Below are positions 6,366 through 52,721 of a stretch of 64,000 nucleotides of DNA, one piece after another (position 1 is the first letter of the stretch; every line of letters begins with the position of its first letter). The stretch covers positions 1-64,000 of the forward strand of contig JAFDZV010000044.1 in NCBI GenBank assembly GCA_018266795.1, in the 5' to 3' direction. The notes below the pieces were generated by a model that ran no database searches, was not told the origin of the DNA, and saw nothing but the letters and a program-made list of their open reading frames with translations. Position numbers and translations under genes: made by a program. The stretch is from Bacteroidota bacterium (lineage in GTDB: Bacteria; Bacteroidota; Ignavibacteria; OLB7).

Positions 6366-8495
6366 TCAGGGCGCGACAACAACCTTGATTGTGTTGATGC
6401 GCTCGCCCGCAGTCAGCCGCAGAATATATACTCCCGGCGAAACGCGGGAGCCGTTCGCATCACGCAGATCCCACAGGGCAGTGGATGTGCCGGCCTCCCA
6501 CCCGGCATCGGCAAGCCTGCGTACATGGCGGCCCGCGATGTCGTGCACGTCGATTGCCACATGGGCCGCGACCGGAAGCGTAACGCTGACCATGGTGCTC
6601 CGCGTTGCGGGATTGGGCGCGGCAGTGCATGCAAACGTCGGTGCAGCCGCGCCGGCAACGCCGGCCAGACGTACGCCGCCGGATACTCCGGCGGAGGCAT
6701 CGTAGTATGTGCCGCTGGCCGTGGTCCGCAGAATTGCCGGACGCACCAGGTAGGTCACCGAGTCCGCGCGGAGTGTGGAGTCCACATACTCCGTGGCAGT
6801 AATCGCAGTAGTGTTCAGCAGATGGTAGATGCCATCCTTCGACGACGCCCAGTAGATGAAGTAACCGTCGGGCTGCACCGCCGGTGACGGCTGCCAGGTG
6901 ATCCGAACGCCCTTCCCCTCGGTGGTGGGTATCACTGCCACCACACCGAGCGTGGGCAGATGTCCCATCAGGGCACGCAGAGTTGGATCGCCCAGTAGCG
7001 CGGCATGCACCAGCCCGTTGCCGAACGTGTAGAGCACGCCGTTGGGATATTGCTGCGTGAAATAGACATTGGGGATGTAGACGCCGTTGCTGTTGTTCTG
7101 GGAGAGGATTGTGGAATATCCGATCGTTTCGCCCAGAGCCATGTGATGGAAGTACCACTGCGGCCGCGCATCCCACACACACGTGAGCGTGCTGGGTGCG
7201 GAGCAGAGCGAGGCCCTCATGAAGTTGTTCTGCGAATCCCAGTCACCGAAATAGGAACCGAACAGCATTGTGAACACGCCGCGAACCACCGGCTTCGTTG
7301 CAAAGTCGGTGGTGCTGCCGATGCCTCCGGCGCTGGTGTACGTGCCGCCGCCGCAGCCATATGCCCACAGATAGGTAGTGTCGCCGCCGAGTGTTGTGAA
7401 GAAGTCACCATCCGTCGTGGTGTTTTCGCCACCGAACAGCGGAATCGTGCGCCAGCCGGCGCTTGCAAATGCCTCGGGATAACTGGTGGCACCGAAGTTG
7501 TCGTCCACAACGCCCCCCAGCTTCACCCGCATCGCGCCGGACCGGAAAGCATGGTCCTTCGCCAGATAGGCGTTGAGCAGATCCGCCTCCGTGGCGGTGA
7601 AGGCCGGCATGTTGTAGAAATCCACGCGGCCGACAGCGAGCTTCACGGTTGAGGGCATGTCGGACTGGTCGAACTTTCCATCTCCAGGCACATTCCGATT
7701 CTCCTCGCGTCCGGCATCCGCGTTGTTCACCTGCGTGTCGGTCCACGAGGCATCACCATCGATATCGCCGTAGTAGAGATCGGCGGGCCATGCGCCCAGA
7801 TGGTCCGGATGTCCGTCCGGATTGATTTCTCCGGAGTAGGGAACCGCAACGCGGCCGATAATGAACACGGAACGGAGATTGCGCGGCGACTTGCTCTCCT
7901 CCGCCATGATGATCGCCTTCACGGCCTTCACGGCCGCCCCGTCGAACTTCTCGGTGCGCGGCACCAGCCGGCGCGTCACCTGCCACCCTTCACGAATCAG
8001 GTCGCTCTCCAGCTGCTCGAGTTTGGCGGAGACCGCATTCATCATGGTGGAATCCACCAACAGAAGCACGCGCCCCGGAAGCGGCTGGGGAAGACGTTCG
8101 ATGCCCGAGAGGATGTAGCCGCTGCCGTAATACCTGAGCCCGGTTGTGTCGGTGAGCTTGTGGTAGGCCTGCCTGATCACCTGATACTCGTACGCGGTGC
8201 CAACCGCCACCGCCGTGTCGGTCCAGAAGGTCGCCGTTGAATCCAGCGTCACACGCGGCGCCTGCGGCCAGTCCGCATCGGCAGGTGCCTTGCGCCAGAT
8301 GCCGTAGCTGGTAGTGTATGCATCGCGATTCCAGTGAAGCGTGATCGCAGGACGCGGCGCCTTGGCCACATCCGCACGCAGCATCACCGCGAAGTCCTTG
8401 GATTCCTGCGCGCGAGCGGGTGAAAGCGCTGCGAGCAGGATTGCCGCAACGATGACGGCAGGCGCGAAACGTCGAGCAAACGGAAGCAGTGTCAT
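6366..8495 (-). CDS. T9SS-exported, C25 peptidase-like protein lacking catalytic residues
   Basis: 709 residues from ATG 8495, chosen because TGAGG lies 8 bases upstream and a signal peptide (FAPAVIVAAILLAALSPARAQ) follows; the longer frame to 8645 is not needed. The middle has gingipain-family hallmarks: RVLLLVDSTM, RSVFIIGRVAVPYSG, DLYYGDIDGDASW and LAVGRVDF. Where C25 enzymes have GHGS and an active-site Cys, this protein reads YGCGGGTYTS and MLFGSYFGDWD. The last 85 residues (PNPATRS, VHDIAGRHVRRL, SPGVYILRLTAGE) form a T9SS type A / FlgD-like sorting domain, so export by T9SS to the cell surface is expected. A fibronectin-like region precedes it. Function is unknown; it may be a pseudo-enzyme or use other residues. 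Confidence 0.8.
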   Translation of the reverse strand: MTLLPFARRFAPAVIVAAILLAALSPARAQESKDFAVMLRADVAKAPRPAITLHWNRDAYTTSYGIWRKAPADADWPQAPRVTLDSTATFWTDTAVAVGTAYEYQVIRQAYHKLTDTTGLRYYGSGYILSGIERLPQPLPGRVLLLVDSTMMNAVSAKLEQLESDLIREGWQVTRRLVPRTEKFDGAAVKAVKAIIMAEESKSPRNLRSVFIIGRVAVPYSGEINPDGHPDHLGAWPADLYYGDIDGDASWTDTQVNNADAGREENRNVPGDGKFDQSDMPSTVKLAVGRVDFYNMPAFTATEADLLNAYLAKDHAFRSGAMRVKLGGVVDDNFGATSYPEAFASAGWRTIPLFGGENTTTDGDFFTTLGGDTTYLWAYGCGGGTYTSAGGIGSTTDFATKPVVRGVFTMLFGSYFGDWDSQNNFMRASLCSAPSTLTCVWDARPQWYFHHMALGETIGYSTILSQNNSNGVYIPNVYFTQQYPNGVLYTFGNGLVHAALLGDPTLRALMGHLPTLGVVAVIPTTEGKGVRITWQPSPAVQPDGYFIYWASSKDGIYHLLNTTAITATEYVDSTLRADSVTYLVRPAILRTTASGTYYDASAGVSGGVRLAGVAGAAAPTFACTAAPNPATRSTMVSVTLPVAAHVAIDVHDIAGRHVRRLADAGWEAGTSTALWDLRDANGSRVSPGVYILRLTAGERINTIKVVVAP

Positions 8496-8816
8496 GCCAT
8501 GAACCTCACACTGAGTTGGACGGACTATTGTCGAGGGATGATGCAAGATCGGGAATGTGCGCACACGCTGCGCATACAATGCGCACGTATCGCACTGCGA
8601 GCGTTCTGCGCACAATCGTGAGCGCCGCTCTCGCGCAAACGCCACGGCGGCCGGGAGCCAAGAGATCCTGACACGACAGGATGTTGTCCTCTCCCGCCGG
8701 ATATTTCCTGCAACCGCTCAGGAACTCCCAGCGAACCAAGGGCGAGCGTATAAAGAACCAGGCCCCCGGTTTCGAACGGCCGTTGATGGCGTTCGAGGCC
8801 CGTTCGTCCGGAACCT
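8496..8816. other. Intergenic region upstream of the C25-like gene
   Basis: About 320 bases between era and the secreted-protein gene, both on the minus strand. No credible coding frame. It contains the phased TGCGCA boxes listed separately. Confidence 0.4.
8558..8612. promoter_or_regulatory. Four TGCGCA boxes, three spaced exactly 11 bp
   Basis: The palindrome TGCGCA occurs at 8558-8563, 8569-8574, 8580-8585 and 8607-8612, with start-to-start spacing of 11, 11 and 27 bases. The boxes lie 63-117 bases upstream of the C25-like gene start. Helical phasing suggests a binding site for a cooperative DNA-binding protein; this is inference. Confidence 0.45.
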
Positions 8817-9734
8817 TCAGTACCCGAAGCCGCGCAGCCTGTTCTCGTTCTGCCGCCATTCGTCGCGGACCTTCACGAAGAGCTCCAGATACACCGGCAC
8901 CTCCAGAAACTCTTCCACGTTCGCGCGCGCCCGCTCGCCAAGGCGCTTCAACGCCTCTCCCTTCTGGCCGATCACGATGCGCTTCTGCGTCTCTCGCTCC
9001 ACAACGATCTCCGCACTGATGAAGGTTTTCGCAGGAGCCTCACGCTCCTTGAACTCGACTACCACCACTTCCACGGAGTACGGGATCTCCTGCTTGTAGA
9101 GCTTCAGAACCTGCTCGCGAATCAGCTCGCTCACGAAGAAACGCTGCGGCTGCTGGCTGATCAGCTCGGGATCGTACAGCGGCGGCCCCTCCGGCAGATG
9201 CCCGGCAATCAGGTTCATCAACGCATCCACATTGTCGCCATGCTTCGCCGAGATCGGAATCACATCCAGGAACGCTCCCATGTTCATGAAACGCTCCATC
9301 ACCGGAAGCATCACCTTCTTGTCGTGCAGCGTGTCCACCTTGTTGATGGCCAGCACAACCGGCTTGCGAAATCCGGCCACTCCCTCCAGCGGCGTAGCGG
9401 CCAAGCGTTCCAGATCCGGAGCGTTCGCATCAAGCATCAGCAGCACGATGTCGCAGTCCGTCAACGCCGTCTCCACATACCCCAGCATCTTCTGCTGCAG
9501 CAGATAGTGCGGCGTCAGCACGCCCGGTGTGTCCAGAAAGATCATCTGCGCCGCATCCGTGGTCATGATTCCCAGCACGCTCTTCCGCGTGGTCTGCGGT
9601 TTCGATGTCACGATCGAAAGCTTGGCGCCAACCAGGCGATTGATCAATGTGGACTTGCCGACGTTCGGTTCGCCGACGATCGCCACGTAGCCTGTGCGAA
9701 ATGCCGATCCTGTCTCCTGTTGCACCGGGGCCAT
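8817..9734 (-). CDS. era: GTPase Era
   Basis: 305 residues, the usual Era length. GTPase motifs: G1 GEPNVGKST (about 21-29), switch region QTTR, G3 DTPG, G4 NKVD and G5 SAKHGDN. The C-terminal KH domain carries QKRIVIGQKGEALKRLGERAR. Era binds 16S rRNA near its 3' end during 30S maturation and couples assembly to growth; it is soluble and peripherally membrane-associated. It follows the LytM-domain gene by 45 bases on the same strand and is probably the last gene of a run with ldcA. Confidence 0.97.
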   Translation of the reverse strand: MAPVQQETGSAFRTGYVAIVGEPNVGKSTLINRLVGAKLSIVTSKPQTTRKSVLGIMTTDAAQMIFLDTPGVLTPHYLLQQKMLGYVETALTDCDIVLLMLDANAPDLERLAATPLEGVAGFRKPVVLAINKVDTLHDKKVMLPVMERFMNMGAFLDVIPISAKHGDNVDALMNLIAGHLPEGPPLYDPELISQQPQRFFVSELIREQVLKLYKQEIPYSVEVVVVEFKEREAPAKTFISAEIVVERETQKRIVIGQKGEALKRLGERARANVEEFLEVPVYLELFVKVRDEWRQNENRLRGFGY

Positions 9735-49251: not shown

Positions 49252-49965
49252 TCAGAAGGACGGGCCGCCCGTGATGGGGCTCAGGCCGGCAAGGAAATGC
49301 CGGATTGCCTCGGCGCACGCCTCAGGGGCCGCCTGCAATGCGAGGTGGGGAGCATCGACTGCAACGATGCGGCAATCCGGACGCAGCCGGGCGATGTAGT
49401 TCGCGGAGGCATGGCCAAGCAGCCGGTCGCGGGTGGGTGAAAGCACCAGCAGAGGCACACCGGTACGCTGTAGCGAACGCGAGGCATCGGCGCGAAGCAC
49501 GAGGCGGATCCGCGAGGCGATCACCCGCACGGGAACGGACCGGACAATGTCGCGAACCGAACGCAGAAGCCATTCCGGCACGGGGCCGTTCAACATCAGC
49601 CTGCGGAGCAGCGTCCCCACGGGAATCGGAACGAAGGGGGCGGCCCGCGATGCCGCTCGAACCAGAGCGCGGAGAGGCAACGGCAGCGGACATCGCACGA
49701 AGGATGCCACGAGCACCAGGCCCCGCACACGATCGCCGAGCATGACCGCGAGCTCCGCGGCAACCGGACCGGAGAAGGACTCCGCGACAATCACCAGCGC
49801 ATCCCCGCCTTCGGCGTGCCGCGCAGCAAGACGGACAAGATCTGCGTAGCCGGGGCGCTCGTCCACCGGATAGGGAACAACAACGGCCTCATCTGCGGTC
49901 CCCATTGCATGGATGAACCGCTCGAACAGTTTGCCGGTACCATCCATGCCCGGCAGCAGCAGCAT
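49252..49965 (-). CDS. Alpha/beta hydrolase, BioH-like in size
   Basis: 237 residues from ATG 49965, selected by GGAGGAG 8 bases upstream (49980-49974); the longer frame to 50001 is not needed. MLLLPGMDGTGKLFERF gives the oxyanion-hole loop, IVAESFSGPVAAEL the nucleophile elbow with Ser, SPTRDRLLG the acid and DAPHLALQAAPE the His. It is a small cytosolic serine hydrolase; the substrate is unknown. It follows a membrane protein gene closely (4 bases in the longer frame). Confidence 0.85.
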   Translation of the reverse strand: MLLLPGMDGTGKLFERFIHAMGTADEAVVVPYPVDERPGYADLVRLAARHAEGGDALVIVAESFSGPVAAELAVMLGDRVRGLVLVASFVRCPLPLPLRALVRAASRAAPFVPIPVGTLLRRLMLNGPVPEWLLRSVRDIVRSVPVRVIASRIRLVLRADASRSLQRTGVPLLVLSPTRDRLLGHASANYIARLRPDCRIVAVDAPHLALQAAPEACAEAIRHFLAGLSPITGGPSF

Positions 49966-50004
49966 CCGCACGGCTCCTCCCTGTAATCCGCGATGGTGCA
50001 TGCG

Positions 50005-50379
50005 CTACTGCCGGCTTGCGCGGGGCTGTCCTGCCGGGCGGCCATAGCGCTGTGTAGCGAAGCCCACGATCAATCCCACGATGCTGCCGGGAATCATGAT
50101 CTCGAGATAGTAGTGCCTACCGGTCTGCGGATCGGGCATCATCGCAGCCAGATAGGCCAGCAACATACCGACCCCGAGGCCGATAATGATTCCGAGCGGC
50201 AGCGACCGAAGCTTCGTGGCCACGAAGCCAACGATCACCCCGGCAATGATTCCCTTGATCATGGATCCGATCACGATGCCGAGGATCTTGGGCGACATTC
50301 CCGGGTACAGCAGCGCGGTGAGCCCGTCGAAGACGCCGAGTATTCCGCCGAGAACGATTCCGAGTAACGGTTTGGACAT
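50005..50379 (-). CDS. Small glycine-rich membrane protein
   Basis: 124 residues from ATG 50379, with GAGG seven bases upstream. Three or four Gly/Ile-rich helices: LLGIVLGGILGVFDGL, ILGIVIGSMIKGIIAGVIVGFVA, LGIIIGLGVGMLLAYLAAMM and MIPGSIVGLIVGFA. There is no known domain; the GxxxG pattern suggests tightly packed helices. Placed between the VOC and hydrolase genes, on the same strand as both. Confidence 0.75.
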   Translation of the reverse strand: MSKPLLGIVLGGILGVFDGLTALLYPGMSPKILGIVIGSMIKGIIAGVIVGFVATKLRSLPLGIIIGLGVGMLLAYLAAMMPDPQTGRHYYLEIMIPGSIVGLIVGFATQRYGRPAGQPRASRQ

Positions 50380-50459: not shown

Positions 50460-50828
50460 TCACGACCCGGCGGCCGCATCGAACTGGATCAGCCCGAACT
50501 CGTTCCCCTCGGTGTCGCGGAAGTATCCCAGATAGCCTACTCCCGGAACGGCTGACTTCGGAACCGTCTGCGTGCCGCCGTTCGCCGCGATCCTGGCCGC
50601 CCACTCGTCGAACGACGGCACATCGATAACGTTGTTCGCACGCTCCTCCGGGCTGTTCCGGCGTCCCATGCCTCCATCGATACCCGGCCCCTCGGTGCCG
50701 GTGGCGATCATCCAGTAATCCATGGGGCCATCCCACTTCGTGAACGTCCATCCGAACACGTTGGAGTAGAACGACTCTGCACGGGCGGGATCGTTTGCCA
50801 ATAGTTCGAAGTGGCTGATACGTTGCAT
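50460..50828 (-). CDS. VOC-family (glyoxalase/dioxygenase-fold) protein
   Basis: 122 residues from ATG 50828, fixed by the strong site AAGGAGG 8 bases upstream (50843-50837). Two beta-alpha-beta-beta-beta modules: ISHFELLANDPARAESFYSNVFGW and the C-terminal YLGYFRDTEGNEFGLIQFD. His6 and the Glu in GNEFGL may form part of a metal site. The substrate is unknown; close relatives are annotated as PhnB-like or glyoxalase-like. It lies 118 bases downstream of the kinase gene. Confidence 0.88.
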   Translation of the reverse strand: MQRISHFELLANDPARAESFYSNVFGWTFTKWDGPMDYWMIATGTEGPGIDGGMGRRNSPEERANNVIDVPSFDEWAARIAANGGTQTVPKSAVPGVGYLGYFRDTEGNEFGLIQFDAAAGS

Positions 50829-50946: not shown

Positions 50947-51984
50947 TTAACGTCCCATCAAAAAAAATACCACGGCGCGCATCACGAGATAGGCCAGCAC
51001 CAGGAGAACCAGGAACCGATGCCGGCGCGTCCATCGCAGCGCCCGCTCCAACAGGTTCTCGCGGTAGGCCGAGACCGCGGCGCCGTCCAGAAAGCGGAGC
51101 ACGTCATCGGCAAGGAACGCGGCGGATTGATAGCGCGCGGCCGGCCGCTCCTCCATCGCCTTCCGGCAGATCGCCTCGAGCGCACGCGCACCCCAGACTC
51201 CGTAGGCGCGCACGGCCGCATGCAGCGCGCCGGCACGCGCGCCCGGATCGGGGGGCGGCGTACCGTTCAGGAGAAAGAAGAGGATGCCGCCGAGCGCATG
51301 AATATCGGATCGCTCGTCCACCTCCCCGCTGCTTCCACGAGCCTGTTCCGGCGCCATGTAGTACGGCGTGCCCATGATGGCTCCGTGGGCGGTGTGGTGC
51401 CCGCTTCCGGCAACGTCGCGAGCCCCGGCTCCTGCATCGGATGCGTTGCCCGCGGCAGCGGCGTCATCGAGCAGCCGCGCTATCCCCCAGTCCATCACCA
51501 GCACCTCGCCGAACGTTCCCACCATGATGTTTTCCGGCTTGAGATCGCGATGCAGCACACCTCGCGAGTGTGCGAACGCAACCGCCTCACAGACCTTGTG
51601 GAACAGGCGCAGCCGGTCCGGCAAGCCCTCCAGGAGAGTGACATGGCGGTCCAGGCGCTCGCCGTCCACATACTTCATGGTGAAGAAGACGCGTCCATCC
51701 GCAAGGCGCCCAACGTCGTGCACCGGAACGATGCCTGGATGTTCCAGCCGCGCAACGATGCGCGCCTCGCGCAGCATCCGCTCCGCGAGATCGTTGCTGG
51801 CCAGCGGTGCAGCAAGCACCTTCAGCGCAACACGCCGCTCCAGGGCGGTATCCTCCACGAGGTAGACTTCCCCCATTCCGCCCGAGGCAATGAAGCTCTG
51901 GATGCGGTATCCGGTCCCGCTCAGATCGGGCCAGACCGTTTCCCGGCGCAGGCGCTCGAGCACGCTGTCGGAAAGCCAGGTCAT
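50947..51984 (-). CDS. Membrane-anchored Ser/Thr protein kinase
   Basis: 345 residues from ATG 51984. Hanks motifs: Gly loop FIASGGMGEVYLVED (31-45), Lys55 in RVALKVL, HRDLKPENIM (145-154), DWG in place of DFG (165-167) and the activation-loop end GTPYYMAPEQARG. One transmembrane helix closes the protein (LVLLVLAYLVMRAVVFF). There is no extracellular sensor domain beyond a few residues, unlike PASTA kinases. Its start overlaps the stop of the sigma factor gene by 4 bases, so kinase and sigma factor are made together; phosphorylation of the sigma factor is the likely link. Confidence 0.92.
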   Translation of the reverse strand: MTWLSDSVLERLRRETVWPDLSGTGYRIQSFIASGGMGEVYLVEDTALERRVALKVLAAPLASNDLAERMLREARIVARLEHPGIVPVHDVGRLADGRVFFTMKYVDGERLDRHVTLLEGLPDRLRLFHKVCEAVAFAHSRGVLHRDLKPENIMVGTFGEVLVMDWGIARLLDDAAAAGNASDAGAGARDVAGSGHHTAHGAIMGTPYYMAPEQARGSSGEVDERSDIHALGGILFFLLNGTPPPDPGARAGALHAAVRAYGVWGARALEAICRKAMEERPAARYQSAAFLADDVLRFLDGAAVSAYRENLLERALRWTRRHRFLVLLVLAYLVMRAVVFFLMGR

Positions 51985-52721
51985 GCCGCAGTTACCCCCA
52001 GCAGCAGAGCCGCCTCGCTCCGGAACTCCTCCTCGCTTGCCGTCAGTTCGTGAAGAGCGTCGAGAAGCGCACGCCGGAGATCGCGACGTATCGCGGCGAG
52101 ATAGTTCGTGACGGCCACGGTGGTAACCCCGAACTCGCCGGCAAGCTCGCGATAGCTGGGGGGCGGGCCGTCTGCATCGTCCGCAAGCACCACACGCTCC
52201 AGGAGCGCCGTGTGCACGGGACGCCCGGCGTCGGCAAGAGCCGCCTGCACGCGCCGCACGGCAAGCATGTAAAGGCTCCGCACGAACTCGCGGTCGAAGC
52301 AGGCATCCGCATCGCTCACGGCGCCGGCTGCGGCGATCGCACGTTCCGCCTCCTCCGCATCCAGCGCGATATGCTCGGCATCGCCGCCGCGCTTGATTCT
52401 TCGCTCCGCCTTCATGTGATTTGCCACGAAGCCGTCCAGGCATGTGCGGAGATAGGTGCGGAAGCGGGCACGCGAAGGATCGTAGCGGCCAAGCAGGTTG
52501 CGCTCGATCAGTTCGGCGAAGAAGCCGTGCGTGAGATCCTCCGCCTCATCACGCTCACGGTTCCAGCGCAGCCGGATGTAGGTATAGACCGGAAGGCGAT
52601 AGGCCGCTGCCACGGCGGCAAGTCCGCGCGCGCGCGTGCCACCATCGGCGCTCGCGGCAGCGGCGATCGCTGAGATGCGCGTGGATGGGAAGCGGTTCGA
52701 GGAAGAGGAAGCGTTGCTCAT
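51981..52721 (-). CDS. ECF-type sigma factor coupled to a Ser/Thr kinase
   Basis: 246 residues from ATG 52721. Region 2 reads RERDEAEDLTHGFFAELIER followed by RYDPSRARFRTYLRTCLDGF and VANHMKAERRIKRGG, the wording of the sigma factor group found beside Ser/Thr kinases in Planctomycetes, Verrucomicrobia and relatives. Region 4 is SYRELAGEFGVTTVAVTNYL, the helix-turn-helix. A Ser-rich start (MSNASSSSNRFPSTR) could be a phosphorylation site. It likely redirects RNA polymerase to its own regulon. No anti-sigma gene is adjacent. The 4-base overlap with the kinase is ATGA. Confidence 0.9.
   Translation of the reverse strand: MSNASSSSNRFPSTRISAIAAAASADGGTRARGLAAVAAAYRLPVYTYIRLRWNRERDEAEDLTHGFFAELIERNLLGRYDPSRARFRTYLRTCLDGFVANHMKAERRIKRGGDAEHIALDAEEAERAIAAAGAVSDADACFDREFVRSLYMLAVRRVQAALADAGRPVHTALLERVVLADDADGPPPSYRELAGEFGVTTVAVTNYLAAIRRDLRRALLDALHELTASEEEFRSEAALLLGVTAA

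Follow-up and report, generated by a model that had tools for sequence, protein, structure and literature searches.

On balance we favour the reading that a sigma factor, a Ser/Thr kinase, a small membrane protein (TMP) and a promoter-like element in a 64,000-nt stretch of bacterial DNA (hereafter the window) form a compact signalling module, in which the kinase controls the sigma factor, the sigma factor serves a private promoter ahead of the genes for a VOC protein and the TMP, and the TMP is both target and partner. Comparison of these genes with their relatives shows a conserved overlap of the sigma factor and kinase genes, co-occurrence of both with the TMP, and a promoter-like element before TMP operons; the TMP and the promoter, which go beyond the initial annotation, give the best evidence of what the sigma factor does. 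In the mechanism that we propose, the membrane-anchored Hanks-type kinase would control, most likely through direct phosphorylation, the sigma factor whose translation immediately precedes its own, and the sigma factor would guide RNA polymerase to a single promoter, TTAAAG(R)-N13-GTTKAATRGA, which starts within the kinase stop codon and would drive the VOC protein and the TMP. The TMP, as target and constant partner, would probably feed back on the kinase or protect the membrane. Control of the sigma factor by the kinase is likely, judged from adjacency, co-occurrence and the EcfP/EcfK literature, while the sign of this control and the role given here to the TMP should be read as putative. 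The features are listed in Table 1.

Table 1. Features of the putative signalling module, in window coordinates.
Feature	Position	Strand	Basis
ECF-type sigma factor, 246 aa, sigma2 + sigma4	51981..52721	-	ORF, Pfam, AF2 model, relatives
Hanks-type Ser/Thr kinase, 345 aa	50947..51984	-	ORF, Pfam, catalytic residues
ATGA overlap, sigma stop/kinase start	51981..51984	-	4-base overlap also in relatives
Region 2.2 acidic motif E59-A60-E61-D62	52536..52547	-	alignment of close family
Single C-terminal hydrophobic kinase helix F324-M343	50956..51015	-	sequence, 20 cognate kinases
TMP, 124-aa four-helix membrane protein, invariant D18 + K42	50005..50379	-	profile, alignment, model
Predicted cognate promoter TTAAAGA-N13-GTTGAATGGA, 23.1 bits	50921..50950	-	motif model; -35 part overlaps kinase stop
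VOC/glyoxalase-like protein, first gene after promoter	50460..50828	-	Pfam; ATG 50828, longer ORF from 50888

Judged from the reading frames of its relatives, the sigma-kinase pair is real and conserved, and its overlap is not due to chance, since an automatic test found the sigma locus to carry a full kinase ORF in 21 of the 29 close family members (the window protein plus 28 others), from several phyla, with the exact 4-base overlap at 14 of these 21 loci. Two loci (L048 and L053) had been overlooked by the automatic kinase test, and a profile scan placed a kinase at −4 in both. The initial annotation had described a sigma factor that overlaps the kinase by ATGA with no anti-sigma gene present; the ORFs and their overlap were found as described, and the absence of an anti-sigma gene held for the adjacent genes of the window, where Pfam annotation gave the VOC protein, the TMP, an alpha/beta hydrolase, a TPR protein and, divergent from the pair, a saccharopine-dehydrogenase-like gene. 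The adjacent anti-sigma gene of canonical systems was thus not found, and the TMP also had no confident Pfam family and lay below the cut-off in all curated families. The alpha/beta-hydrolase gene (49252-50001, minus strand) begins directly after the TMP gene and could belong to the same transcript. A check for plasmid carriage of the locus gave no match, and a search for anti-phage defence genes gave generic kinase matches only.

The first four relatives of the sigma factor (44-45% identity) came one each from a KSB1, a deltaproteobacterial, an ignavibacterial and an acidobacterial genome, and in each of these four taxa a kinase gene lies directly behind the sigma gene. Profile searches, which covered the phyla of three of these four relatives, gave scores in two tiers, with a close family at 216 bits or more and a sister family at 152 bits or less. 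The 28 close relatives, drawn mostly from draft genomes, share 39-51% identity with the window protein. The home genome has a single copy, and the close sigma factor was absent from 147 other genomes of the home phylum, with one weak partial match (E 3.6e-4). Sigma and kinase distances were correlated (r 0.70, 0 of 5000 permutations as high) with species history left in, and three genomes of the KSB1 phylum have the sigma gene apart from the kinase gene, yet retain both. In KSB1-phylum loci a radical-SAM-like gene of ~530-590 codons is conserved directly behind the sigma gene (L066, L068, L069), and in two other genomes of the phylum it separates the sigma gene from the kinase. Several loci depart from the common arrangement. 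Genome G590 has two sigma paralogues (L060 and L062) that adjoin carboxypeptidase-regulatory-like or TonB-like genes and have no adjacent kinase or TMP gene, and a third copy (L064) with both; at L056 (3708-3878) the sigma gene is intact, the kinase is reduced to 57 residues and the TMP is gone. Decaying modules were seen at L116 (4147-5380), with sigma and kinase remnants beside an intact TMP, and at L118 (3212-3914), with sigma and TMP remnants and no kinase. In the deltaproteobacterial L003, a 722-aa protein (6720-8888) with two tandem kinase domains follows the sigma gene, and both the TMP and the cognate kinase are absent from that genome.

The window sigma factor has sigma2 and sigma4 and no sigma3, as ECF sigma factors do. 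Its Pfam match was to Sigma70_r2 (24.4 bits versus a cut-off of 24), its score with TIGR02937 was under the cut-off, and its AF2 model consists of two helical domains carrying the sigma2 and sigma4 helices; the solved structures closest to it are those of ECF sigma factors, with weak E values (best 0.02). According to published accounts, kinase-regulated ECFs lack the DAED motif of region 2.2 and phosphorylation restores the charge; in the STPK-regulated ECF43, ECF59 and ECF60 the motif is replaced by uncharged Ser/Thr-type residues (PMC8103513, PMC8999054), namely QTTA or STTA with a phospho-Thr in ECF43 and a phosphorylatable Ser in ECF59/60. In contrast, region 2.2 of the close family reads (D/E)-A-x-D, with D62 invariant (29/29), D or E at position 59 in 27/29 and K, E, Q, A, R or G at position 61, so that by alignment its acids are those of ordinary ECFs, unlike ECF43/59/60. 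Since the sigma factor retains this acidic motif, and the position of the EcfP phospho-Thr is never Ser or Thr among the 29 members, the EcfP switch, in which a phospho-Thr replaces a missing acid, is not transferable to this family and was ruled out; what the family does share with EcfP is the adjacent Hanks-type kinase gene, at 21 of 29 loci. The earlier proposal of a phosphorylation-controlled sigma factor therefore stands as far as the association with a kinase goes, through adjacency and co-occurrence across phyla, but not as far as the known switch is concerned, and its suggestion that the phosphosites lie in the Ser-rich N-terminus fell away, as that stretch occurs in the window protein and is not conserved among relatives.

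Alignment also points to no outstanding phosphosite among the conserved positions of the sigma factor. The sister family is likewise conserved or Ser/Thr-rich at T14, S17, T64 and T89; T205, T227 and S229 are retained in members without a cognate kinase; and several conserved Ser/Thr positions begin a helix of the AF2 model, which makes a structural role likely. S189 is Ser or Thr in all 25 kinase-linked members, and two paralogues without a kinase have R and K there. It was demoted to a weak candidate because it lies at a sigma4 helix start, a place where ECFs usually have Ser, and because both exceptions come from one genome, as paralogues related to each other. As the known switch fails and the conserved Ser/Thr positions are explained otherwise, the kinase may act at another site of the sigma factor, or may restrain a sigma factor that is competent by default.

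The kinase matched Pkinase with 115.6 bits (E 3e-33) and has the catalytic residues of the Hanks type (K55 as the VAxK lysine, E73, HRD at 145-147, N152 and D165), with DWG replacing DFG. As had been noticed initially, it has a single C-terminal helix and almost nothing outside, about 2-3 residues following the hydrophobic stretch. All 20 cognate kinases compared share the motif Y332-x3-R336 in this helix and terminate 9 (once 8) residues past the Arg. Since none of these 20 kinases has an outside sensor domain, the signal probably arrives through the membrane helix, through the TMP or from the cell interior.

The TMP family comprises proteins of 117-128 aa with four predicted membrane helices (model pLDDT 91), in which D18 and K42 are invariant (18/18); the model places these two residues within helices 1 and 2. 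A profile scan found the gene behind the kinase in most loci. Of 396 genomes from the acidobacterial phylum, 18 have the close sigma factor and 20 the TMP, with 17 having both (Fisher p = 7e-26, which overstates independence because the genomes are related). The sigma/TMP co-occurrence persists where the TMP gene is unlinked: in G656, G651 and G827 it lies on a separate contig, and in G1058, G1059 and G1060 of the KSB1 phylum the kinase and TMP genes are together and the sigma gene is elsewhere, all three genes being present in each of these genomes. Sigma or kinase remnants adjoin the TMP gene in two (G820, G886) of the three genomes that have the TMP only, and the TMP is absent from G189 and G839, where the sigma factor accompanies an atypical or truncated kinase. 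By this three-way co-occurrence, the TMP accompanies the sigma-kinase pair; it appears to represent an undescribed family, for which the module gives a first context. Fold searches added little, as the best Foldseek match was unconvincing (E 0.9) and a similarity to complex I subunits (VIA Z ~6, rmsd 4) was too weak for a helical bundle. A distant relative (L087/L119, G011 C141:7436-7762; E 3.5e-13) occurs in the home phylum, with no sigma or kinase gene beside it.

A further reading, which we hold only tentatively, is that the acid-keeping sigma factor is switched by another route, in which the TMP would sense the signal and touch the kinase helix via intramembrane charges (R336 and D18/K42), its own gene being a sigma target so that a feedback loop would result. 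In our view unlikely is the idea that the sigma factor, having kept the acids that bind RNA polymerase, is active by default and that the membrane-bound kinase, by holding or phosphorylating it, acts as an off-switch in place of an anti-sigma factor. The retained region 2.2 is consistent with this, translational coupling would suit two proteins made in fixed proportion, and L060, L062 and L056 keep the sigma factor without a full kinase; however, the known kinase-ECF pairs are activating, and no recognised sigma-binding domain was found beyond the kinase domain.

The preferred reading, in which the sigma factor has a private promoter, draws on a two-part element first read by inspection upstream of TMP genes: TTAAAG(A/G)-N13-GTTTAATAGA, at fixed spacing, stands ahead of the TMP gene or TMP operon in most loci. 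Expectation-maximisation, run on 21 upstream regions, yielded nTAAAGn-N13-GtttAAtaGa at a single spacing, with a total log-odds of 280, versus 142 ± 6 for ten shuffles. The window element lay outside the training stretch, because the VOC gene separates it from the TMP gene, and scored 23.1 bits, the second-best site in the 64 kb reaching 9.3 bits. Held-out elements scored 20.6 bits (L053), 19.8 (L004), 26.6 (L055, where the element also precedes a VOC gene), 25.5 (L100) and 24.0 (L103), and L102 provided a further held-out site; elements in some TMP-bearing genomes were weak (13.1 bits at L113, 14.2 at L114). The strict pattern with at most one mismatch matched once in the 5.97-Mb home genome, at the window site, and reversed-pattern controls gave 0-5 matches per genome. 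In about half of the kinase-bearing loci the element begins one base ahead of the kinase stop and shares its TAA; in other loci it follows 5 to 978 nt later, or precedes TMP genes that are unlinked or divergent, and coding constraint therefore does not account for it. Position, co-occurrence and the element together suggest that the VOC-TMP operon is most likely the single, private operon transcribed with this sigma factor, and from co-occurrence and position we infer that the sigma factor itself recognises the element.

An element of at least 10 bits was absent from the 160 nt upstream of every sigma gene tested, so that autoregulation of the sigma gene was rejected and nothing favours control via an autoregulated level. 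This weighs against a reading to which we give little credence, namely that the kinase mainly acts on the TMP or another protein and that the sigma factor is merely co-transcribed, its activity following its level. Although kinase-TMP adjacency is kept in the three genomes with a displaced sigma gene, and the sigma factor has no compelling phosphosite, the recurring 4-base overlap and the correlated distances also argue for a tie between the sigma factor and the kinase. It is similarly improbable that another regulator or the housekeeping sigma factor binds the element, a reading that the likeness of TAAAG to the −35 of sigma28 promoters would allow, but against which stand the 16 sister-family loci without a site of 13 bits or more (best 12.3), the location of the sole home-genome match beside the sigma factor's own kinase, the presence of the element at TMP genes that lie unlinked in sigma-bearing genomes and its absence at the TMP copy of G730, which has no close sigma factor, and the finding of neither a sigma70-type promoter nor an Rfam match.

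Kinase control of an ECF sigma factor has one mechanism worked out, in one group (ECF43), whose pairs EcfP-PknT of Vibrio parahaemolyticus and EcfK-PknS of Xanthomonas citri resemble the window module in that an ECF stands beside a transmembrane Hanks-type kinase with no anti-sigma gene. The window module departs from the defining residue pattern of ECF43 yet retains the kinase; unlike the ECF43 pairs it includes a four-helix TMP and a putative private promoter, and its kinase is without the periplasmic signal region described for PknS. ECF59/ECF60 and the predicted kinase-linked ECF61, 62, 217 and 283 are alike in the microsynteny of a Ser/Thr kinase gene. The sister family (L070-L085; 'FATTRWSLVLAA ... 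DLTQGFF ... VAVHRLRRRYR'), found in acidobacterial and KSB1 genomes, some of which carry several copies, shares the N-terminal motif, the region 2.2 DLTQ, KRGG and the C-terminal tail and is often near a large kinase gene, but has a different sigma4 recognition helix (K/R at 205 versus T in the close family), no TMP and no element. The module links an ECF sigma factor, a kinase, a small membrane protein and one matching putative promoter across several phyla. As it adds a third protein and a putative one-operon regulon to the predicted promoter, the way in which the kinase controls the sigma factor becomes testable with a reporter in a few strains.

Judged from the other genomes, the payload of the element varies and the TMP is constant. 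Exact element sites also precede YCII, AHSA1, DUF4287/DUF5655 and DUF3828 genes, and AHSA1 behind the element recurs in two genomes (L103, L131).
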